From NCBI GenBank assembly GCA_003021335.1, contig PXQL01000108.1:1-16132 (forward strand): a DNA stretch of 16,132 bases, given 5' to 3'. A program made the position numbers and the translations under genes. Below, one piece after another: positions 2,226-16,132 of this stretch (positions are counted from its first letter, which is position 1; the number at the start of each line of letters is the position of its first letter). This DNA comes from Halobacteriales archaeon QH_10_67_13 (lineage in GTDB: Archaea > Halobacteriota > Halobacteria > Halobacteriales > Haloarculaceae). Under the pieces are notes generated by a model. The model ran no database searches. It was not told where the DNA came from and worked only from the letters and a program-made list of their open reading frames with translations.

Positions 2226-3496
2226 TCAGGCGAGCAGCCCCGTCAGGTCCGCTGTCGTCTTCGATTCGAGGTCTTTGATCGTCTCGACGATCTCCTCGCG
2301 GCGCTTTTGCCCGTAGACGTTCGCAGCCATCGGGTGGAACTTCTCCTCGAGTTCGGCCCAGTCCATGGGGTCGGTCGGGTGCCCCCGGAAGGCATCTTTT
2401 TCGACGTGGTGGACGGTACCGTCTTCGAGTTCGACGTCGATCGCGGCGGGCATCTCGCCGTCCTCGAAGCGCTCGGTGAAGCTCTCGTTTTCGGTGACGG
2501 TGACCGTCCCGAGTAGCTCTTGTACGTCCGGGGACTGTATCCGGTCGGGCTCGTACTGTGCGTTGTGCATCTCCCGGTCGAGCAGCGCCGCCGCGAGCAT
2601 GTAGGGAAGGGAGTGATCGGCCTGGGCTTTCGTCTCAACGACGTGGCGGTCGCCCTCGCCGCCGCCGATGATCAGCTTCGCGCCGTGGAACGTCTCGAGG
2701 TGGTTTCGGCGACGTACCGCTTTGCCATCACGTCCTCGACACGGCGACAGGCCGGATCGAGGTCCACCTCGAACTCTCCCGAGATGATCTGCTGCCAGCC
2801 TTTCTGTCCCTCGAAGAGGTTCTTTGGGCCCTCCATGCCCTCGTCCGCGAGCAGGGCGGCGTAGGCCCCGTTGCGGGCGGCGTTGCCGGCCGCGACGCCT
2901 TTCCACTCGTTGATGCCCCCGGTCCGGGTCACCCGGAGAGCGTTGTGGGCGGTGCCGGCGATCCCGATCGCGTCCCGGATCGCCTCGCGGTCGAGATCGA
3001 GCAGCGCGGCCGCCGCGGCCGCCTGGGTGATGACGGTGTGGGTAACGTGATCGAACCCCCGGTCGCGGACGGGCGCGTTCCAGGCCAGCTCGCCCTGTAG
3101 CTCGTAGGCGATCGCGGCCGCCTCGATCAGCTCCCGGCCGGTCGCCCCGACGGCTTCCCCGACCGCGACGATCGTGCCGACGTTGTCACTCGGGTGTGGC
3201 GTCTCGCCCGGGGCGAGAAACGAGTCCATGAAATCCAGGTATCGGGTCAGCGTCGTATTGTACATTGCCGCGCCGGCCGGCGAGGCGGTTTCGCCGGCCG
3301 CCCACAGCGACGCCCCGTCTCCGCCCTCCCTGGTGACCGTCTTCCGGACGGCCTCAACCGGCGGTTCGCCGACCGCCCCGAGCCCGATCCCCACCGAGTC
3401 CAGCAGCCGGCGCTTGAGCTGGTCGACGACCTCCGCCGGCAGGTCATCGTACTCGACGGTCTCGACGAACGCCGCGATTTCGGCTGTCGTCGTCAT
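2226..3496 (-). pseudogene. MmgE/PrpD family protein, internally deleted and frameshifted
   Basis: This is the MmgE/PrpD family, which includes 2-methylcitrate dehydratase and cis-aconitate decarboxylase relatives acting on small tricarboxylic acids. Residues 1-265 from the ATG at 3496 read MTTTAEIAAFVETVEYDD and include family landmarks: LLDSVGIGLGAVGEPP, GETPHPSDN near 97-105, and GGINEWKGVAAGNAARNG near 193-210. The frame fails after AKRYVAET at about 2700. The family pattern resumes in another frame with LETFHGAKLIIGGGEGDR, through ETKAQADHSLPYMLAAALLD, to a stop at 2226. Relatives carry roughly 25-30 more residues between YVAE and LETF, so this is a deletion of about 75-95 nt, not a one-base slip. 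The gene has its own TATA box and lies 64 nt downstream of pantoate kinase. The exact substrate is not assignable. Confidence 0.85.
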
Positions 3497-3517
3497 GTGC
3501 GTCGTTCGCGCGGCCCG

Positions 3518-3524
3518 AATAAAA
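3518..3524 (-). promoter_or_regulatory. TATA box of the MmgE/PrpD gene
   Basis: On the minus strand TTTTATT is centred about 25 nt before the ATG at 3496. It supports that start and a leaderless transcript separate from the upstream pantoate kinase gene. Confidence 0.5.
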
Positions 3525-3560
3525 GCCCCGGGCGAGCCCGGGCCCGTCGCACACGGGCGG

Positions 3561-4397
3561 TCAGGGCCGCTCTTCGAGGCTGGCCCCGCCGGGGTGGATC
3601 CGACAGGCTGCCGGCTCGTAGCCCGCGTCGGAGAGCCCGGTCCCGAGTGCAACGACGGTCTCGCCGAGCATCCCCATCGTCGCGCTGCCGCCGGCCTCGG
3701 CGACCGCCTCGATCGCCTCCCGGACCCGGTCGGTCAGCAGGCCCGACTCCCGGGCGAACCGCCGCGAGGCCCGCATGAACCGGTCGACCGTCGGCTCGGC
3801 TACGACCGCCGAAAGGGCCCGCTCGCCGGCTGCGTCGATCGCCTCGGTTTCCTCGCCGACGACCGCGGCGGTGTCTACCTCCCCGAAGCTGTGGTACTCG
3901 ATTCGACCCCGCGCCGGGATCGCGTCGAGCAGGTTGTCCTGTGGCCCGCCCGGCTCGAGCCGGATTGGCACGCCGCCCCGGGCCTGGGCGACCACGTCCC
4001 CGAGCCCGGTGCCCGACTGGACTTCGGCGCCGTGGGCGATCGTACACAGTTCGTTTTCCGAGAGCCGGCGGTCGAAGGCGGCGTTCGCGGCGAGTGCGGC
4101 CCCCAGTGACGCGGCCCCGGAGACGCCAAAGCCCGCGCCGACCGGTAGGTCCGTCGCGATCTGTACCTCGGCGGTCGCCTCGAGGGCATCGAGCACCCGC
4201 TCGACCGGGGCCATCTCGATCGATTCGCCGTCCAGGAGAACCTGTCGCCGGTCGGCGGGCCGGACGGTCACCGTCGCGCCCGAAGAGAGGACGATCCCGC
4301 CGCCCCGCGAGCCCGCCCTGGTCGGGTCGTCGTCTTCCTCGACGCTGAAGAAGCCGGTCACGTGTCCCGGGACGAACGCCCGCGCCAGATCCGTCAT
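3561..4397 (-). CDS. pok: Archaeal pantoate kinase (GHMP family)
   Basis: This 278-residue protein matches the archaeal pantoate kinase family. It phosphorylates pantoate with ATP to 4-phosphopantoate, the step archaea use with phosphopantothenate synthetase in place of bacterial PanC/PanK on the way to coenzyme A. The N-terminus MTDLARAFVPGHVTGFFSV is the family signature. The GHMP ATP-binding loop is PVGAGFGVSGAASLG at about 85-99. The third GHMP motif is represented by GGSATMGMLGETVVALGTG near residues 236-254. The C-terminus (GYEPAACRIHPGGA) is also typical, and the length fits a complete gene. It is divergent from the small gene at 4519 and upstream of the MmgE/PrpD gene. Other GHMP kinases are less likely, given the start signature. 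Confidence 0.88.
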   Translation of the reverse strand: MTDLARAFVPGHVTGFFSVEEDDDPTRAGSRGGGIVLSSGATVTVRPADRRQVLLDGESIEMAPVERVLDALEATAEVQIATDLPVGAGFGVSGAASLGAALAANAAFDRRLSENELCTIAHGAEVQSGTGLGDVVAQARGGVPIRLEPGGPQDNLLDAIPARGRIEYHSFGEVDTAAVVGEETEAIDAAGERALSAVVAEPTVDRFMRASRRFARESGLLTDRVREAIEAVAEAGGSATMGMLGETVVALGTGLSDAGYEPAACRIHPGGASLEERP

Positions 4398-4845: not shown

Positions 4846-4858
4846 TTACGGAAGTTCG

Positions 4859-5314
4859 AGGAGAAAGCCCCGCCGCTTACCGCGGGGATGAATCCGACAC
4901 CTCCGCCACAACCGCCGGAGTTAAGAATCCTGACAGCATATTGTCGAACAAGCACAACGGGCAAAACCTGGCGGTTGGATTGGGGTCCGTCCGGACGACG
5001 AAGGCCACCATACTGTTCCCGAGAGGGCGTGCAGGCAGGCCGATGGCACGGCCCGTGCTCGGACGCCCCGAAAGGGGTGACCGGGGGCATCCCAGCCGTC
5101 TCTCCGAGACGAATGGGATGCACGGTGCAAGCGGATACCGTGTCCGAACGGACGCGCAACACGCCACACCCCTCGCGGGGCCGACGTATCGCGCACGAAT
5201 CCGGTATCGCCTCGCCGGACCCCATCCGGCAGGCGAGACGTTGCCAGCAGGGACACGGGACCGGCCCGCTGTCCCGCGCTGGAATCCTCGCCCTTCAGCG
5301 CGGGGAGGATGTCA
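4859..5314 (+). ncRNA. Candidate structured RNA / transposase-less IS200/IS605-like element (element 1)
   Basis: This 456-base block has no convincing coding frame but many strong stems: 4868-4873/4882-4887, 4901-4905/4916-4920 competing with 4910-4916/4970-4976, 5046-5050/5054-5058, CCCC-GAAA-GGGG at 5066-5077 inside 5058-5062/5081-5085, 5087-5094/5114-5121 around 5098-5102/5106-5110, 5134-5140/5202-5208, 5169-5172/5177-5180, 5211-5216/5232-5237, and a long hairpin 5244-5259/5265-5282. It opens with GGAGAAAGCCCCG plus a hairpin and closes with TGGAATCC, a TTCA-loop hairpin and GGGGAGGATGTCA, which resembles the right end of haloarchaeal TnpB elements. No tnpA or tnpB is present. It may be a non-autonomous (PATE-like) element, an internally deleted element keeping its omega-RNA, or a free-standing RNA. 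The RNA call is inference from folding. Confidence 0.5.
5281..5314 (+). mobile_element. IS200/IS605-type right end (element 1)
   Basis: The end comprises GGAATCCTCG, a CCCTTCAGCG loop region and GGGGAGGATGTCA; TCCTC and GAGGA pair across it. The last three bases (TCA, 5312-5314) are the complement of the aspS stop codon, so the element ends exactly at the end of aspS. The same terminal octamer GGATGTCA closes the elements at 13979 and 14802. Confidence 0.6.
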
Positions 5315-6625
5315 AGGGGAGAGTCGCTGGCGGTCCCTGGGGAAGAGCACGGCCTCGCGGACGTTCTCCAGCCCGAGCATCGTCATGACCAGCCGGTCGG
5401 CCCCCAGTCCCCAGCCGGCGTGGGGGGGCATCCCGTACCGGAACATCTTCGTGTAGTACTCGAAGGCCGCCGGATCCAGCCCCTGTTGTTCGAACCCCAC
5501 GACCAGCCGGTCGTGGCGGTGCTCGCGCTGTCCGCCCGAGGCCAGTTCGAGGGAGGGATGCATCAGGTCAAAGCCCGTCGAGACGTCCGGATCGTCCGCC
5601 AGATCGCGGATGTAGAAGGGCTTGATCTCGCTGGGCCACTCGGTGACGAAGTAGTGTTCACCGACGGCCCCGCCGAGGGCCCGTTCGGCCTCCGTCGAGA
5701 GGTCGTCGCCCCAGACCAGCGGCTCGGCGAGCTCGCCGGTGGCGTTGACCCGCTCGATCGCCTCCTCGTAGGTGAGCCGCGGAAAGTCGCCGTCGGGAAC
5801 AGAAAACTCCGCGAGCCCGAGCGCCTCCAGTTGGGACCGACAGTTCCGGGCGACGGCCTCGTAGGCCCCGGTGACGATCGCCTCGGCGGCGTCCATCGCG
5901 TCGCCGGCGTCGAAAAACGCCGCCTCGAGGTCGATCGAGGTCGCCTCGTTGAGGTGCCGGGGGGTGTTGTGTTCCTCGGCACGGAAGATCGGCCCGACCT
6001 CGAAGACCCGCTCTAGCCCCGACCCGATCATCAGCTGCTTGAACAGCTGCGGGCTCTGGTTCATAAACGCCTCCTGTCCAAAGTAGGTGATCGGGAACAG
6101 CTCGGTGCCGCCCTCGGTGCCGGTGGCGACGATCTTCGGCGTGTTGATCTCCGTACAGCCAAGCTCGCGGAACTGCTCGCGGACCGCGCGCAGTACCTCC
6201 GCGCGGATTTCGAAGATCGCCTCGACCTCGGGTTTGCGGAGATCCAGCGTGCGGTTGTCGAGCCGCGTCGGGAGTTCGGCCTCGACCTTCCCGGAGGGAT
6301 CGAGTGGCAGCTCCGGATCGGCCGGCGAGATCACTTCGAAGGCGTTGGGAACGACCTCGACGCCGGTCGGCGCCCGGTCTTCGGCCTCGACAGCCCCCGC
6401 GACCGAGACCACGCTCTCGCGGTGGATGTTCAGGGCGGTCTCGACCAGCTCGTCGTCGAGCTCGTCTTTCTCGAATTTCACCTGGATCTTGCCGGTCGTG
6501 TCTCGCAGGATGAGAAAGGCGATACCACCAAGATCGCGGATCTCGTGGACCCAGCCGGCAAGGGTCGCCTCCCGGCCGGGCTCGGCGTCCGCGGCGTAGG
6601 TTCGGGTTTCGGGATCTACAGCCAT
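5312..6625 (-). CDS. aspS: Aspartyl-tRNA synthetase, archaeal, probably non-discriminating
   Basis: This complete 437-residue class IIb synthetase charges tRNA-Asp with aspartate. The OB-fold anticodon-binding domain spans about 1-105 ([19 protein letters not shown]). The catalytic domain has motif 2 [11 protein letters not shown] near 214-224 and motif 3 [14 protein letters not shown] near 406-419. The C-terminus [13 protein letters not shown] is the normal archaeal ending. Residue 27 is His and residue 86 is Pro. From published work on archaeal AspRS, discriminating enzymes carry Trp and Lys at these anticodon-reading positions, so this enzyme should also charge tRNA-Asn with Asp, feeding the GatB-containing amidotransferase encoded nearby. 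No internal deletion is visible, unlike topA and gatB. The stop codon overlaps the right end of element 1. Confidence 0.95.
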
Positions 6626-6671: not shown

Positions 6672-8769
6672 TCAGCCGGCGAGCTGGCCCTGCCAGTCCT
6701 CGAGCCGCGCGGCGCTTACCCCCTCGACGGTCTCGGCGACGGTTTCGGGGTCGGCGCTCGCGAGCGCCTGCGGGGAGTCGATGCCGGCGTCCGCGAGCTT
6801 CTCGGCGGTCGCCGTGCCGATGCCGTCGATGTCTTCGAGTTCCTCGGCGGCCTCCCGGGCTCGGTAGGCCCGATAGTTACAGACCGGACAGCCGATCTCC
6901 CAGGGCTCGTCGTCGTCGGCGTCGATCACCAGCTCGGGCAGGTCGTGGTCCTCGCAGCGCTCCTCGGTGACGGTGATCTCGCCGTTCCTGGGAAGCGGTA
7001 GCGAGTACTCGCAGTCGGGGTACCGCGTGCATCCGGCCATCCGCGAGCCCGACCGCAGACGCTTTATTGCGAGTTCGCCGCCCTCCCCGGCCCCACCCTC
7101 CGGGCAGGGGCCGATGACCTCGTCGTCGGTGTTCTCGGCCTCGGCGGCGGCACACCGCGGACAGCCGTGGACGAACGTGTCCCGGCCGGCCAGCAGCTTC
7201 ACGTGACGCAGGTCGTGGTCCGCGCAGGTCTCCTCGAGCACCAGCGGCTCGCCCGTGCTCGGCAGCGGGAGCGTGAACCGACAGTCGGGGAACCCGTCAC
7301 AGCCGACGAAGTACGACCCGCCCTGAGACTGCCGGACCAACAGGTCCTCGCCACACTCCGGGCAGGGACCGAGCCGGCGGTCCTCTTTCAGCGACTCCTG
7401 GAGGTGCTCGCCGATCGCCTCCCGGGAGCTTCGTAACTCCTCGAAGACCCGCCCGAGCATCTCCCGGGACTCCGCAGTCACCGCTTCGAGGCTCTTCTCG
7501 CCGTCCGCGATCGCCGTCATGTCGGCCTCGAGCCGGGCGGTCATCTCCTCGCTGACGACGTGTTCGGCGAACTCCTCGGCGGCCGCGACGACCGCCTCCG
7601 CCAGTGCCGTCGGGCGGGGCGGATCGCTCTCGATGTACCCGCGATCGTACAGCTTCTCGATGGTCCGGTGGCGGGTCGCCTTCGTGCCGAGCCCGCGATC
7701 TGCCATCGTCTCGATCAGCCGCGACTGGCCGTCGCCCTCGGCTAAGGCCGGCAGGCTCGTCTCGGTCGCGTTCGGGTACGGGTAGACCGCGTAGTAGCCC
7801 TCCTCGACCAGGCGCTTGCCGTTTGCCTTGAGCCGCTCTTGTTCGACCGTCGCGACGACCCGGAGCCGCTTCCAGGTCGCGGGCTCGGCAACGGTCGCGA
7901 AGAACCGCCGGACGATCAGCTCGTAGACTTCCCACTCGTCGTCGCTCAGCTCCCCGCGCTCGGGCAGGTCGCCGGTCGGGTGGATCGGCGGATGGTCGGT
8001 CGTCTCCTCCTCGCCACGGGTGGGCTCGATCTTCCTCCCAGATCCGCTCTTGCTCGCCGTCGTCCTCGTAGAAGTACTGTGCCTCGAAGCTACCGTCGTC
8101 GTCGGCCAGTTCGGCGGTCAGCTCCCAGTAGTTCTCGGGCTCGAAGGCCTCGATCTCGCGCTCGCGGTCGACGATCAGCTTCAGCGTCGGCGACTGGACC
8201 CGGCCGACCGAGATGAAGTCGTTCCCGAGCTGGCGGGCAGCCAGCGACAGGAACCGGGTCAGTGCGGCCCCCCAGACCAGATCGATCACCTGCCGGGCCT
8301 GGCCCGCGGCGGCCAACTCGAAGTCGAGCTCGTCGGGATCCGCGAACGCCTCCCGGACCTCCCGATCGGTGATCGAGGAGTACCGCACCCGCTTGATTTC
8401 CGCGACCGCGTCGGCGATCAGCTCGTAGGCCTCCTTGCCGATCAGCTCGCCCTCCCGGTCGTAGTCGGTCGCGATGATCGCCCGATCCGCCTCCGCCGCG
8501 AGCTCTTCTAAGGTTCTGACGATCGCCTCTTTGGTCGGCTCGGTGACGATCTCGGCGTCGATCAGCTCGACGGGCTCGGCGTCCCGCCAGTTCTCGTACT
8601 CCTCGGGGAAATCCAGTCCGACGACGTGTCCGGAGAGTCCGACGACGTGGGTGTCGCCCCACCGGTAGACGCTCACGCCGTTGTGCCGCGTGACGCTTGC
8701 GGCCCCCTCGCTCAGTATCTCCGCGATCCGCCGGGCGGCGTTTTCCTTCTCCGTGATGATCAGCTCCAC
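6672..8769 (-). pseudogene. topA: DNA topoisomerase I (type IA), two internal deletions
   Basis: Type IA topoisomerase relaxes negative supercoils by breaking one strand through a tyrosine. The start at 8769 is GTG ([19 protein letters not shown]). The TOPRIM domain has ATDYDREGELIG at about 100-111, and the frame is normal (LVWGAALTRFLSL, ISVGRVQSPTLKLIVDRER) up to residue 246. At about 8032 it breaks, and homology resumes in another frame at KIEPTRGEEETTDHPPIHPT. About 100 residues are missing, including the segment with the catalytic Tyr (the YPRTDNTVYP region). A second, in-frame gap follows LAEGD at about 7730, where roughly 20 residues with the xPPxRY motif before GQSRLIETM are absent. 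Downstream are zinc ribbons (CPECGEDLL; one degenerate as CPEGG) and a helix-hairpin-helix end (LEDIDGIGTATAEKLADAGI). As written it cannot be active. Confidence 0.92.
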
Positions 8770-12532: not shown

Positions 12533-13981
12533 ATGAGCGCTACCACGGGTGTGACGATGGCGTCGCTGTCGACCTACGCCATCCTCGGGTGCGGGAGTGT
12601 GGGACACGCCGTCGCCGAACAGCTCGTCGCGGAGGATAAAGACGTCCTCATCGTCGACGGGGACGAGGACCGCGTCGAGGCGCTCCGGGACCAGGACATG
12701 AACGCCCGGCAGGGCCGAATCGAGACCGACACCGTCGTCGACGCCGTCGCCGACCGGGACGTAATCATGATCCTGGCGGCCGGCGGGGAGCCGACCGTCA
12801 CCGCGATCGAGAAACTGCGCGCACGCGAGGGCGACCGGTATATCGTCGCCCGGGCCGGCGACCCGGTCTCGGCCGACCGGATCCGCGAGGTCGGCGCCGA
12901 CGTCGTGATCAACCCAGCCTCGGTGATCGCCGACTCGGCGCTGCGAGCGCTCGAGTCCGGCGAGCTCGAGTACAAGGCGGAGCAGCTCGTCGAGGCCGTC
13001 GACGCCACCGACGGGCGGCTCGCGATCCGGATCTATCGGAGTCCCGACCCCGACTCGATCGCGAGCGCGATCGCGCTGCAGGCAATCGCCGCCAGCCGGG
13101 ACGTCGAGGCCGACATCGTCTACGACGGGGAGATCGGCCACCGGGAGAACCGCGCCTTCGTCAACCTGCTCGGAATCGACCTGGTGCCCATCGAGGAGGC
13201 CGAGACGACCACATACGACACCGTCGCGGTCCTCGATCACGCCAAGGCGACCGAGAGCCAGGGACGGGTCACCGCCGACATCGTCATCGATCACTACGAA
13301 CACGAGCACGACCACGACGCCGTCTTCACCGACGTTCGGACGGATGTCTCGGCCACCTCGACGATCCTGACGAAGTACATCCAGGAGCTCGATCTGACCC
13401 TCGACGAGCAGGTCGCGACCGCGCTGCTTTATGGTATCCGAGCGGAGACCCTCGATTTCAAGCGCGACGCCACCCCGGCCGATCTCACCGCGGCGGCGTA
13501 TCTCTATCCGTTCGCCGATCACGACACCCTGGAGCAGGTCGAGTCTCCGTCGATGTCCCCGGAGACGCTCGACGTGCTCGCCGACGCGATCCGCAACCGG
13601 GAGGTACGAGGCTCGCACCTGCTCTCGACGGCCGGGTTCATCACCGACCGGAACGCACTCTCCCAGGCCGCCCAACACCTCCTGAATCTTGAGGGCATCA
13701 CGACGACGGCCGTGTTCGCGGTCGTCGAGGACACGATCCACGTCAGCGCCCGCTCGAAGGACATTCGCCTCGACATCGGGGACGTGCTCGTCGACGCCTT
13801 CGGCGACACCGGCGAGGCGGCCGGGCACTCGACGGACGCGAGCGTCGAGATCCCGCTCGGGATCTTCACCGGCGTTGAGGTCGACGAGAGCAACCGCGAG
13901 ACCTTACTCGCCCTGGTCGAGCAGGCCGTCCGGACGCGGCTGTTCGACGCCCTTGGCGTCGAGAACGGGAACGGCTCCTGA
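12533..13981 (+). CDS. RCK_N (TrkA-N) plus DHH-DHHA1 protein with degenerate catalytic motifs
   Basis: The 482-residue protein has an N-terminal Rossmann/RCK domain (YAILGCGSVGHAVAEQL; GxGxxG at 19-24), then a DHH phosphoesterase domain from about 160 and a DHHA1-like domain to the end. Archaea encode several such fusions; active members hydrolyse phosphodiesters such as cyclic dinucleotides or short oligonucleotides, gated by nucleotide or ion binding. The catalytic motifs have drifted. Motif I is YRSPDPDS (168-175) where relatives have HDNPDPDS. The name-giving DHH is DHY (253-255), followed by a His/Asp run (EHEHDHD). The DHHA1 GGH..AG element reads AAGHSTDASVEIP. Both metal-ligand His changes suggest weak or lost hydrolase activity and a possible regulatory role. 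The frame is intact. The TGA stop is also the terminal TGACATCC of element 2. Confidence 0.85.
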   Translation: MSATTGVTMASLSTYAILGCGSVGHAVAEQLVAEDKDVLIVDGDEDRVEALRDQDMNARQGRIETDTVVDAVADRDVIMILAAGGEPTVTAIEKLRAREGDRYIVARAGDPVSADRIREVGADVVINPASVIADSALRALESGELEYKAEQLVEAVDATDGRLAIRIYRSPDPDSIASAIALQAIAASRDVEADIVYDGEIGHRENRAFVNLLGIDLVPIEEAETTTYDTVAVLDHAKATESQGRVTADIVIDHYEHEHDHDAVFTDVRTDVSATSTILTKYIQELDLTLDEQVATALLYGIRAETLDFKRDATPADLTAAAYLYPFADHDTLEQVESPSMSPETLDVLADAIRNREVRGSHLLSTAGFITDRNALSQAAQHLLNLEGITTTAVFAVVEDTIHVSARSKDIRLDIGDVLVDAFGDTGEAAGHSTDASVEIPLGIFTGVEVDESNRETLLALVEQAVRTRLFDALGVENGNGS

Positions 13982-14231
13982 CATCCTCCCCCGACCGAAC
14001 TCCGGAGTTCCACGGTCACGGACCGCGCCCCGACTTGGGGGGTTCCTCACTTGTACACGGTGAGGTCGTGGGTCATGCTAGTGTGCCTTCGACCGAGAGA
14101 GCGGGTTTCATTTACCCGAAAGGAGTGCGTGTCCGTACTCGGACTCGGTATCGCGACCGACGAAAGTCACGAGACTGAATGTTTCGGCGGTTGTCGACTC
14201 CGTACCACGGCTCACGTCGTGGGCTTTCGCC
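13979..14231 (-). mobile_element. Short transposase-less IS200/IS605-like element (element 2)
   Basis: Read on the minus strand, this segment begins GGCGAAAGCCCACGACG with a hairpin (14205-14209/14218-14222) and ends GTGGAACTCC, GGAGTTCGG and GGGGGAGGATGTCA at 13979. Element 1 has the same architecture: GGnGAAAGCCCnCGnCG at the left, a shared internal ACAACCGCCG, TGGAAnTCC before the right end, and GGGGAGGATGTCA at the end. The right end contains the perfect palindrome GAACTCCGGAGTTC. There is no tnpA or tnpB; a nine-codon frame (MTHDLTVYK) is too short to interpret. The element fills the gap between the RCK-DHH gene and the PRC-barrel gene. The left boundary is approximate. It is either a non-autonomous copy or a collapsed autonomous one. 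Confidence 0.5.
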
Positions 14232-14252
14232 TCGAAACTCCGTAACCGGAGG

Positions 14253-15931: not shown

Positions 15932-16132
15932 TCAGGAGTCAAAGAGCGTTATTAGCGTCGCTCGGTAGTAGTAGCCGACGACCGACAGCGCGACCACGAG
16001 CGTCCCCAACCCGAGAGCGAGCCCGACCTGGCCGGCCTGGAACGACTCACCGACGACGTTGACGAGAAAGAACGCGGGGGCGCGTCCGATGACGGCGATC
16101 GCGACCAGCTGCCGGAGCGGCAGCGTCGTGAG
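15932..16132 (-). CDS. VTT/TVP38-like membrane protein, C-terminal part
   Basis: The gene runs off the right edge, so only the last 66 residues are seen. LPLRQLVAIAVIGRAPAFFL matches the conserved amphipathic re-entrant segment of the TVP38/TMEM64 (VTT, DedA-like) family, including the LR..L....GR.P pattern. A transmembrane helix follows (VGLALGLGTLVVALSVVGYY), then a short tail RATLITLFDS. Members are polytopic membrane proteins, several of which act as lipid scramblases or transporters. The stop at 15932-15934 lies 24 bases from the lplA stop on the opposite strand. The family call rests on one short motif plus topology. Confidence 0.65.
   Translation of the reverse strand, partial: LTTLPLRQLVAIAVIGRAPAFFLVNVVGESFQAGQVGLALGLGTLVVALSVVGYYYRATLITLFDS

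Follow-up and report, generated by a model that had tools for sequence, protein, structure and literature searches.

The window, that is, the whole stretch of 16,132 nucleotides analysed here (Halobacteriales archaeon QH_10_67_13, contig PXQL01000108.1), carries a 466-bp mobile element against the end of the convergent gene aspS, and the features of this locus are collected in Table 1. The limits of the element, directly after TTAC and up to a TCAA end, were taken from an alignment with 15 oriented relatives, in which the right end reads ...GGAGGATGTCAA. Of 15 copies, with the window counted and L040 excluded because its left end is disrupted, 13 have TTAC 5′ of the element, and a hairpin similar to the left-end palindrome of the window was seen by eye in most aligned copies, L040 not being one of them. 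The target TTAC occurs once at the window element, so there is no target duplication, and the near-terminal palindromes are of IS605 type, without terminal inverted repeats. The element is too short for a transposase and contains no transposase gene, neither tnpA nor tnpB being found in the ORF list or by Pfam.

Table 1. Coordinates of the element, its internal features and the adjoining gene (positions in the window).
Feature	Position	Strand	Remarks and basis
Whole element, PATE class A	4850-5315	+	466 bp, TTAC then GGAAG...GTCAA; alignment, family and order searches
TTAC target site, IS200/IS605-type insertion	4846-4849	+	Overlaps former stop codon of convergent aspS (by eye)
Left-end near-terminal palindrome CCCCGC...GCGGGG	4868-4887	+	Window sequence
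Deletion point, upstream of RNA core	5030-5031	+	~74 nt lost versus full-length 530-bp element; alignment
Expanded omega-RNA-like scaffold, reaching right end	5038-5315	+	278 nt; R1 matches tnpB 3′ tails
P1 hairpin GGCCG-AUGGCA-CGGCC	5038-5053	+	99.4% of cells paired; C-G/U-A exchange at one pair
Pseudoknot strand UGGCA, P1 loop	5044-5048	+	Last base covaries with −6 base
P2 closing helix, CGUGC (5054-5058) with GCACG (5193-5197)	5054-5197	+	95% of cells paired (both alignments)
Two PATE-form hairpins, 5059-5084 and 5087-5121	5059-5121	+	Alignments
Core hairpin GUGUCC-GAAC-GGACGC	5140-5155	+	Both alignments
Right-end hairpin CCUCGCCC-UUCA-GCGCGGGG	5286-5305	+	89.8% of cells paired in 16 class A copies
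Pseudoknot partner UGUCA, −6 to −2 from element end	5310-5314	+	Covariation count
Putative 16-nt guide, host DNA directly 3′ of right end (end of aspS)	5316-5331	+	Analogy with ISDra2
aspS, aspartate--tRNA(Asn) ligase	5312-6625	−	NCBIfam NF003483, 592.5 bits; ORF list

The locus is almost certainly a PATE, a transposase-free IS200/IS605-type element, with an omega-RNA homologue in its 3′ part. An earlier note on this DNA had marked out a gene-free block at 4859-5314 as possibly an undescribed large ncRNA spread in the form of a non-autonomous IS200/IS605 derivative. The block is a real element, drawn slightly short by comparison with the alignment of 15 relatives, and its non-autonomous nature is borne out by its PATE features and by ORFs without Pfam matches (none for any of the five ORFs of ≥80 aa that lie over the block), but the class itself had already been described from haloarchaea in 2011. 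The PATEs of Haloquadratum walsbyi, introduced as a transposase-free class by Dyall-Smith et al. (PMC3119063), likewise lack a transposase gene and terminal inverted repeats, have near-terminal palindromes and IS605-type ends, and occur as many divergent copies, of which HqIRS71 retains tnpB C-terminal sequence; they differ from the present case in that omega-RNA, a conserved internal RNA fold and a pseudoknot go unmentioned in the available text of that paper.

The window element is absent beside aspS from all 15 genus relatives with the flank (L239-L253). On the aspS side, YTAC lies directly before the aligned GG in eight of these 15, with L249 reading exactly TTAC followed by GGGG at the aspS end, and six others have different bases there. 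At the same aspS end, positions 1-158 of L240 are the right end of a different IS605-type element (GGAAGTCAA), by which the aspS stop codon, now inside the right end of the window element, appears to be a recurrent insertion site. Four relatives (L038, L039, L042, and L043) hold 74 extra nucleotides between query positions 172 and 173, and other copies in the alignment of relatives also carry deletions or inserts.

Elsewhere in the window, a second PATE-like element of ~264 nt occupies 13978-14241 on the − strand (TTAC, then GGAGTTTCGAGGCGAAAGCCC...GGGGGAGGATGTCAG), and the covariance model R1, described below, has no match there. Two further − strand genes are each divided between overlapping frames: a PrpD-like gene at 2226-3652 (2226-2906 and 2672-3652, which match different parts of the profile) and DNA topoisomerase I at 6672-8769 (7297-8769 and 6672-7706). 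Both splits are frameshifts or assembly errors.

RNA fold and pseudoknot

TnpB-less elements with the same core as the window element fall into classes A, B, C, and D, which have different ends. Class A is bounded by TTAC and TCAA, class B elements are ~600 bp long, and class C has the left end CTACCTGATTCAAGGAGAGAGTCCC and the right end GATGTCATT. In L034, a class D copy, inverted repeats are inserted in the near-terminal palindromes, which recalls the SMR-A insertions of Dyall-Smith et al. (PMC3119063).

The dense structure attributed to the 456-nt block is real: on the + strand it folds to −228.6 kcal/mol, compared with −192.3 ± 7.4 kcal/mol in dinucleotide shuffles (z −4.9), and is more stable than 100 of 100 shuffles, while the − strand gives z −4.2. 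All of the stems named in the earlier note exist in the window, including CCCC-GAAA-GGGG at 5066-5077, AACCGCC/GGCGGTT, GATACCG/CGGTATC, and the terminal hairpin, but not all belong to the shared fold: the pairing of 5134-5140 with 5202-5208 is kept whole by 10 of 16 class A copies and lacks a counterpart in the class C elements compared. The proposal of a single RNA of ~450 nt also gave way. As a conserved unit a continuous 450-nt RNA was rejected, the core shared between classes being 5038-5201 and the omega-RNA-like part being only the 3′ ~278 nt, 5038-5315.

Compensatory changes above the level of shuffles were found in two alignments. For 33 TnpB-less cores (5038-5201), aligned by sequence only across classes A-D with the variable class B hairpins partly misaligned, 88.1% of cells are paired over 51 pairs, in a structure folded from the same alignment on which it was scored. 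These cores show 124 two-sided changes, where shuffles give 53.2 ± 5.5 and slid versions no more than 51, and a covariation score of 0.266 versus 0.170 ± 0.006 in shuffles; neither the count of pairs changed on both sides (20 versus 18.4) nor that of further pair types (65 versus 63.3) exceeds the shuffles. Over the whole 3′ part of 16 class A copies, with 79 pairs including the pseudoknot, 95.6% of cells are paired, and the 19 two-sided changes (8.1 ± 2.1 in shuffles) are spread over 10 pairs (4.3 ± 1.3 in shuffles). Of the 79 pairs, one is non-standard in the window copy and 16 are so in L098, the most diverged copy.

The fold itself consists of elements common to PATEs and tnpB genes and of others that are peculiar in form to the PATEs. 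The P1 loop reads GAUGGCA in 33 of 33 cores, an invariance that is partly by construction because the pattern used to collect cores demands GATG[GA]CA. The P2 helix appears by eye in tnpB-linked copies as GTGCG/CGCAC, GTATG/CATAC, and GTGTA/TACAC, and the right-end hairpin is present in PATEs and in tnpB elements. The two PATE-form hairpins are skipped in the alignment of the tnpB-linked locus L112, L113 has an unlike insert in their place, and in class D PATEs the second of them, the counterpart of 5087-5121, is shorter.

The predicted pseudoknot joins the P1 loop to positions −6 to −2 from the element end (UGGCA and UGUCA in the window). In general form, a P1 loop GAUGGCN is followed, at most 330 nt on, by a hairpin and the element end NGUCA. 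A pattern search for loops with T, C or G at N covered 142 genomes and, with L113, L150, and L157 added, gave 111 regions. By one rule, a right end was found in 58 of the 111 and none in 53, the latter probably being chance matches to the loop pattern. The varying position pairs in 55 of the 58 loci with a right end (22 U-A, 23 C-G, 7 G-C, 2 U-G, and 1 G-U) and is broken in three (L157 C-A, L164 C-T, and L188 T-T). Among distinct loci with loop A, the partner is U in all 46 that have a right end, another 21 being without one by the rule. Taken over loops A, T, C, and G, these counts comprise all four Watson-Crick combinations at one position, and the pseudoknot predicted from these sequences is supported by covariation at that one pair. 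The one-rule count supersedes earlier ones based on 68 loci and on 40 hand-picked regions, the latter chosen partly as R1 matches; in the count of 68 loci, another base of the element end was changed in three. In L229, the right end at 193 nt is better than the doubtful one used earlier.

A decayed coding region was considered and rejected: of 16 class A copies, 9 have an open frame inherited from tnpB (MARPV...) and 7 have a stop in it, and variable sites in the 3′ part fall on the three codon positions without bias (48/90, 53/90, and 49/89). A known Rfam family was rejected as well, with no family reaching its gathering score anywhere in the window. Families resembling omega-RNA match below the threshold only: HgcC (RF00062) scores 24.6 bits at 5229-5327 (threshold 50) and sot0042 (RF02656) 17.4 bits (threshold 88). 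The sub-threshold HgcC matches on the 3′ ~100 nt have E values of 0.00065 in L053, 0.057 in L038, 0.067 in the window, and 0.35 in L050, and such matches also occur in 2 of 10 tnpB loci, at 0.014 and 0.018.

Relatives and homology with tnpB 3′ ends

Homologues were found in haloarchaeal genomes at the level of both family and order. A DNA search of the same family gave matches to some part of the block in 119 of 146 genomes, the own genome included; many of the matches listed span only the ~34-42 nt of the right end, and at least nine stretches in other genomes match over the full block or almost all of its 3′ half at 77-94% identity. When the full-length relative L038 was searched against 392 genomes of the order, 55 gave a match at E ≤ 1e-15, and copies 81-92% identical over nearly the full length occur in families f1, f4, f7, and f12. 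R1, a covariance model of the core built from TnpB-less copies only, has matches at E ≤ 1e-12 in 46 of 392 genomes of the order, in 29 of 95 genera. In 392 genomes drawn from the phylum and scanned with stricter filters (E ≤ 1e-6), all 40 matching genomes belong to the same order.

Extrachromosomal records gave mostly partial matches. A phage collection held no match with class A or class C queries and short pieces in 16 records with a class B query. Among plasmid records, the class A query has partial matches in 18, none covering 80%, and the class B query matches 923, seven of them over at least 80%; the bulk of these are from Klebsiella and are probably right-end hairpins of bacterial IS200/IS605 elements. 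Terminal-only PATEs of ~50 bp were also observed, one being L004 on contig 1 of the own genome (~1497-1550, − strand; TTAC, then GGAAGATTCGAGGCG...GGATGTCAAG).

R1 matches were obtained in 25 of 25 genomes, all of which had been preselected for a DNA match. Ten of these genomes hold 80 matches, 43 shorter than 120 nt (24-53 bits) and 37 longer (34-174 bits). At least 19 of the 43 short matches lie within 101 nt behind a TnpB zinc-ribbon match, as judged against 151 TnpB matches listed for these 10 genomes, so that the number of short matches without TnpB is an upper bound. Among the same TnpB matches listed, one of the 37 long matches lies within 300 nt behind TnpB (contig 71 of the own genome, 34 bits), and none above 60 bits does so. 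Six further short matches without a listed TnpB were examined, and five proved to lie on a tnpB tail (...MARPV...WDDH.W...). In the 22 loci inspected (20 fetched ones and two in the own genome), the core homologue is found where a long frame ends, and in 20 of the 22 it lies within the tnpB C-terminal tail (MARPV...WDDH.W or variants); L154 and L162 have a different frame as their longest.

Since R1 finds the 3′ tails of tnpB genes, the conserved RNA of PATEs is homologous to the tnpB 3′ end, which is the site of omega-RNA. The window element has no tnpB gene in cis, and its RNA is therefore called an omega-RNA homologue rather than a proven omega-RNA. The earlier suggestion of an omega-RNA that outlived its TnpB holds insofar as the omega-RNA is there without TnpB. 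It is not simply the leftover of one lost tnpB, because the expanded form is common to TnpB-less elements with different ends and bears compensatory changes; the sequences compared thus argue for a mobile lineage that has been conserved, and against a recent relic.

Among 27 scanned loci, seven have a PATE-like left end before the tnpB gene, resembling class C in L145, L147, L158, and L160 and class A in L153, L155, and L157, so PATEs and autonomous elements have ends in common and, judging from these, probably also a target or TAM. At 52% completeness, the own genome yields seven matches to TnpB and none to TnpA. R1 also matches at two of these seven loci, and the one on contig 58 (L112) has the same UGGCA/UGUCA pair as the window.

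A possible guide for TnpB in trans

Stand-alone omega-RNAs of Ktedonobacter IscB are encoded in trans, and, like the putative guide RNA of the window element, they have no nuclease gene beside them; that system is of the IscB/HNH type, whereas the window RNA is of the TnpB type and lies on a mobile, repeated element. In ISDra2, the omega-RNA forms a pseudoknot between positions −6 to −2 before the guide and nucleotides near the scaffold 5′ end, as is predicted here (PMC10097598), and the reRNA ends with ~16 nt of flank (PMC8612924). In ISDra2 the flank behind the right end serves as guide and the TAM is the TnpA target, as would hold for the window element, but the ISDra2 scaffold has 116 nt with TnpB in cis, against 278 nt in the window (PMC10097598, PMC8612924). 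Haloarchaeal omega-RNAs, or sotRNAs, resemble the window RNA in their 3′ position at the right end, in the right-end hairpin and in a pseudoknot from a loop to the transposon end; they differ in belonging to IS200/IS605 tnpB genes, whereas the window element is without tnpB and has two extra hairpins (PMC12558985).

A PATE of 489 bp in the Halorubrum virus HRTV-DL1 is strongly transcribed over its ~300-nt 3′ part and was likened to a Halobacterium ncRNA, and the available text of that paper draws no link to omega-RNA (PMC10544981). R1 has no match in the HRTV-DL1 record (OP630575.1), whether in three stretches or over the whole record, so the 489-bp PATE belongs to another family, and its transcription was set aside as transcript evidence for the family of the window element. 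The same viral genome contains a terminal-only PATE at 16049-16097 (L234).

The mobile element, its ends, the empty neighbouring sites, the RNA fold, the pseudoknot and the homology with tnpB 3′ ends were all obtained by sequence comparison. The explanation that we consider likely is that PATEs are mobilised by TnpA in trans and that their omega-RNA homologue guides TnpB in trans for retention and drive; that the PATE RNA functions as a guide in trans is a component we regard, from its sequence, as somewhat more plausible than not. TnpA supplied in trans would mobilise the PATE, and transcription running through the right end would add ~16 nt of host flank as a guide. The TnpB of another element would load this RNA and cut element-free copies of the site, recognised as TTAC and then the flank, and repair from an element-bearing copy would restore the element. 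Haloarchaeal cells are polyploid and contain many genome copies, among which such a cycle would amount to retention and drive, and the RNA would thereby persist despite the loss of the nuclease gene. TnpB has been reported to drive spread through multi-copy plasmids (PMC11870625). The comparison suggests a gene-less element that borrows the enzymes of other elements both to move and to stay put. In its widest form, with PATEs as a guide-RNA-only transposon lineage that parasitises TnpA for movement and the TnpB of other elements for retention and drive, the guide RNA being the inherited selfish unit, the proposal seems to us evenly poised.

The element could instead be a decaying deletion derivative of a single tnpB element whose omega-RNA part is an inactive remnant, as might be read from the 74-nt deletion of the window copy, from the deletions or inserts of other copies, from the deletion derivatives described in 2011 and from HqIRS71, in which tnpB C-terminal sequence survives with no frame open (PMC3119063). 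We find this unlikely, given that the expanded core is common to TnpB-less elements with different ends, with compensatory changes among them, and that all but one of the 79 pairs of the window copy are standard. On a still less likely account, the RNA does not work as a guide but acts on TnpB or on transposition as a decoy or regulator; this would agree with a scaffold longer than in TnpB-linked copies, with the retention of the parts expected to be bound and with the proposal of circular omega-RNAs as decoys (PMC12558985). A decoy, however, would need neither the guide-positioning pseudoknot nor the right end at its 3′ edge, and both are kept.

Terminal hairpins of IS200/IS605 elements are recognised by TnpA, and the structure might consist only of DNA hairpins that serve TnpA in single-strand transposition, an account to which the near-terminal palindromes already described in PATEs lend themselves. 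These palindromes were reported by Dyall-Smith et al. (PMC3119063). It is nevertheless scarcely credible, for the conserved fold is internal, has a pseudoknot that ties it to the right end and recurs in tnpB 3′ tails, and the existence of terminal-only copies of ~50 bp (L004 and that of HRTV-DL1) means that the inner sequence is unnecessary for the ends alone.

PATEs have been known since 2011, and the literature searched held no explanation for why their inner sequence is kept; nor did that literature, drawn mostly from outside subscription journals, join PATEs with omega-RNA, apart from the comparison with a Halobacterium ncRNA in the available text of the HRTV-DL1 paper. If the inner sequence is a TnpB guide in trans, PATEs would be natural guide-only mobile elements, and the persistence of transposase-free repeats would become directly testable. 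The known range of omega-RNA scaffolds would also grow by a long form whose pseudoknot has the support of covariation, a possible aid in the design of TnpB tools.
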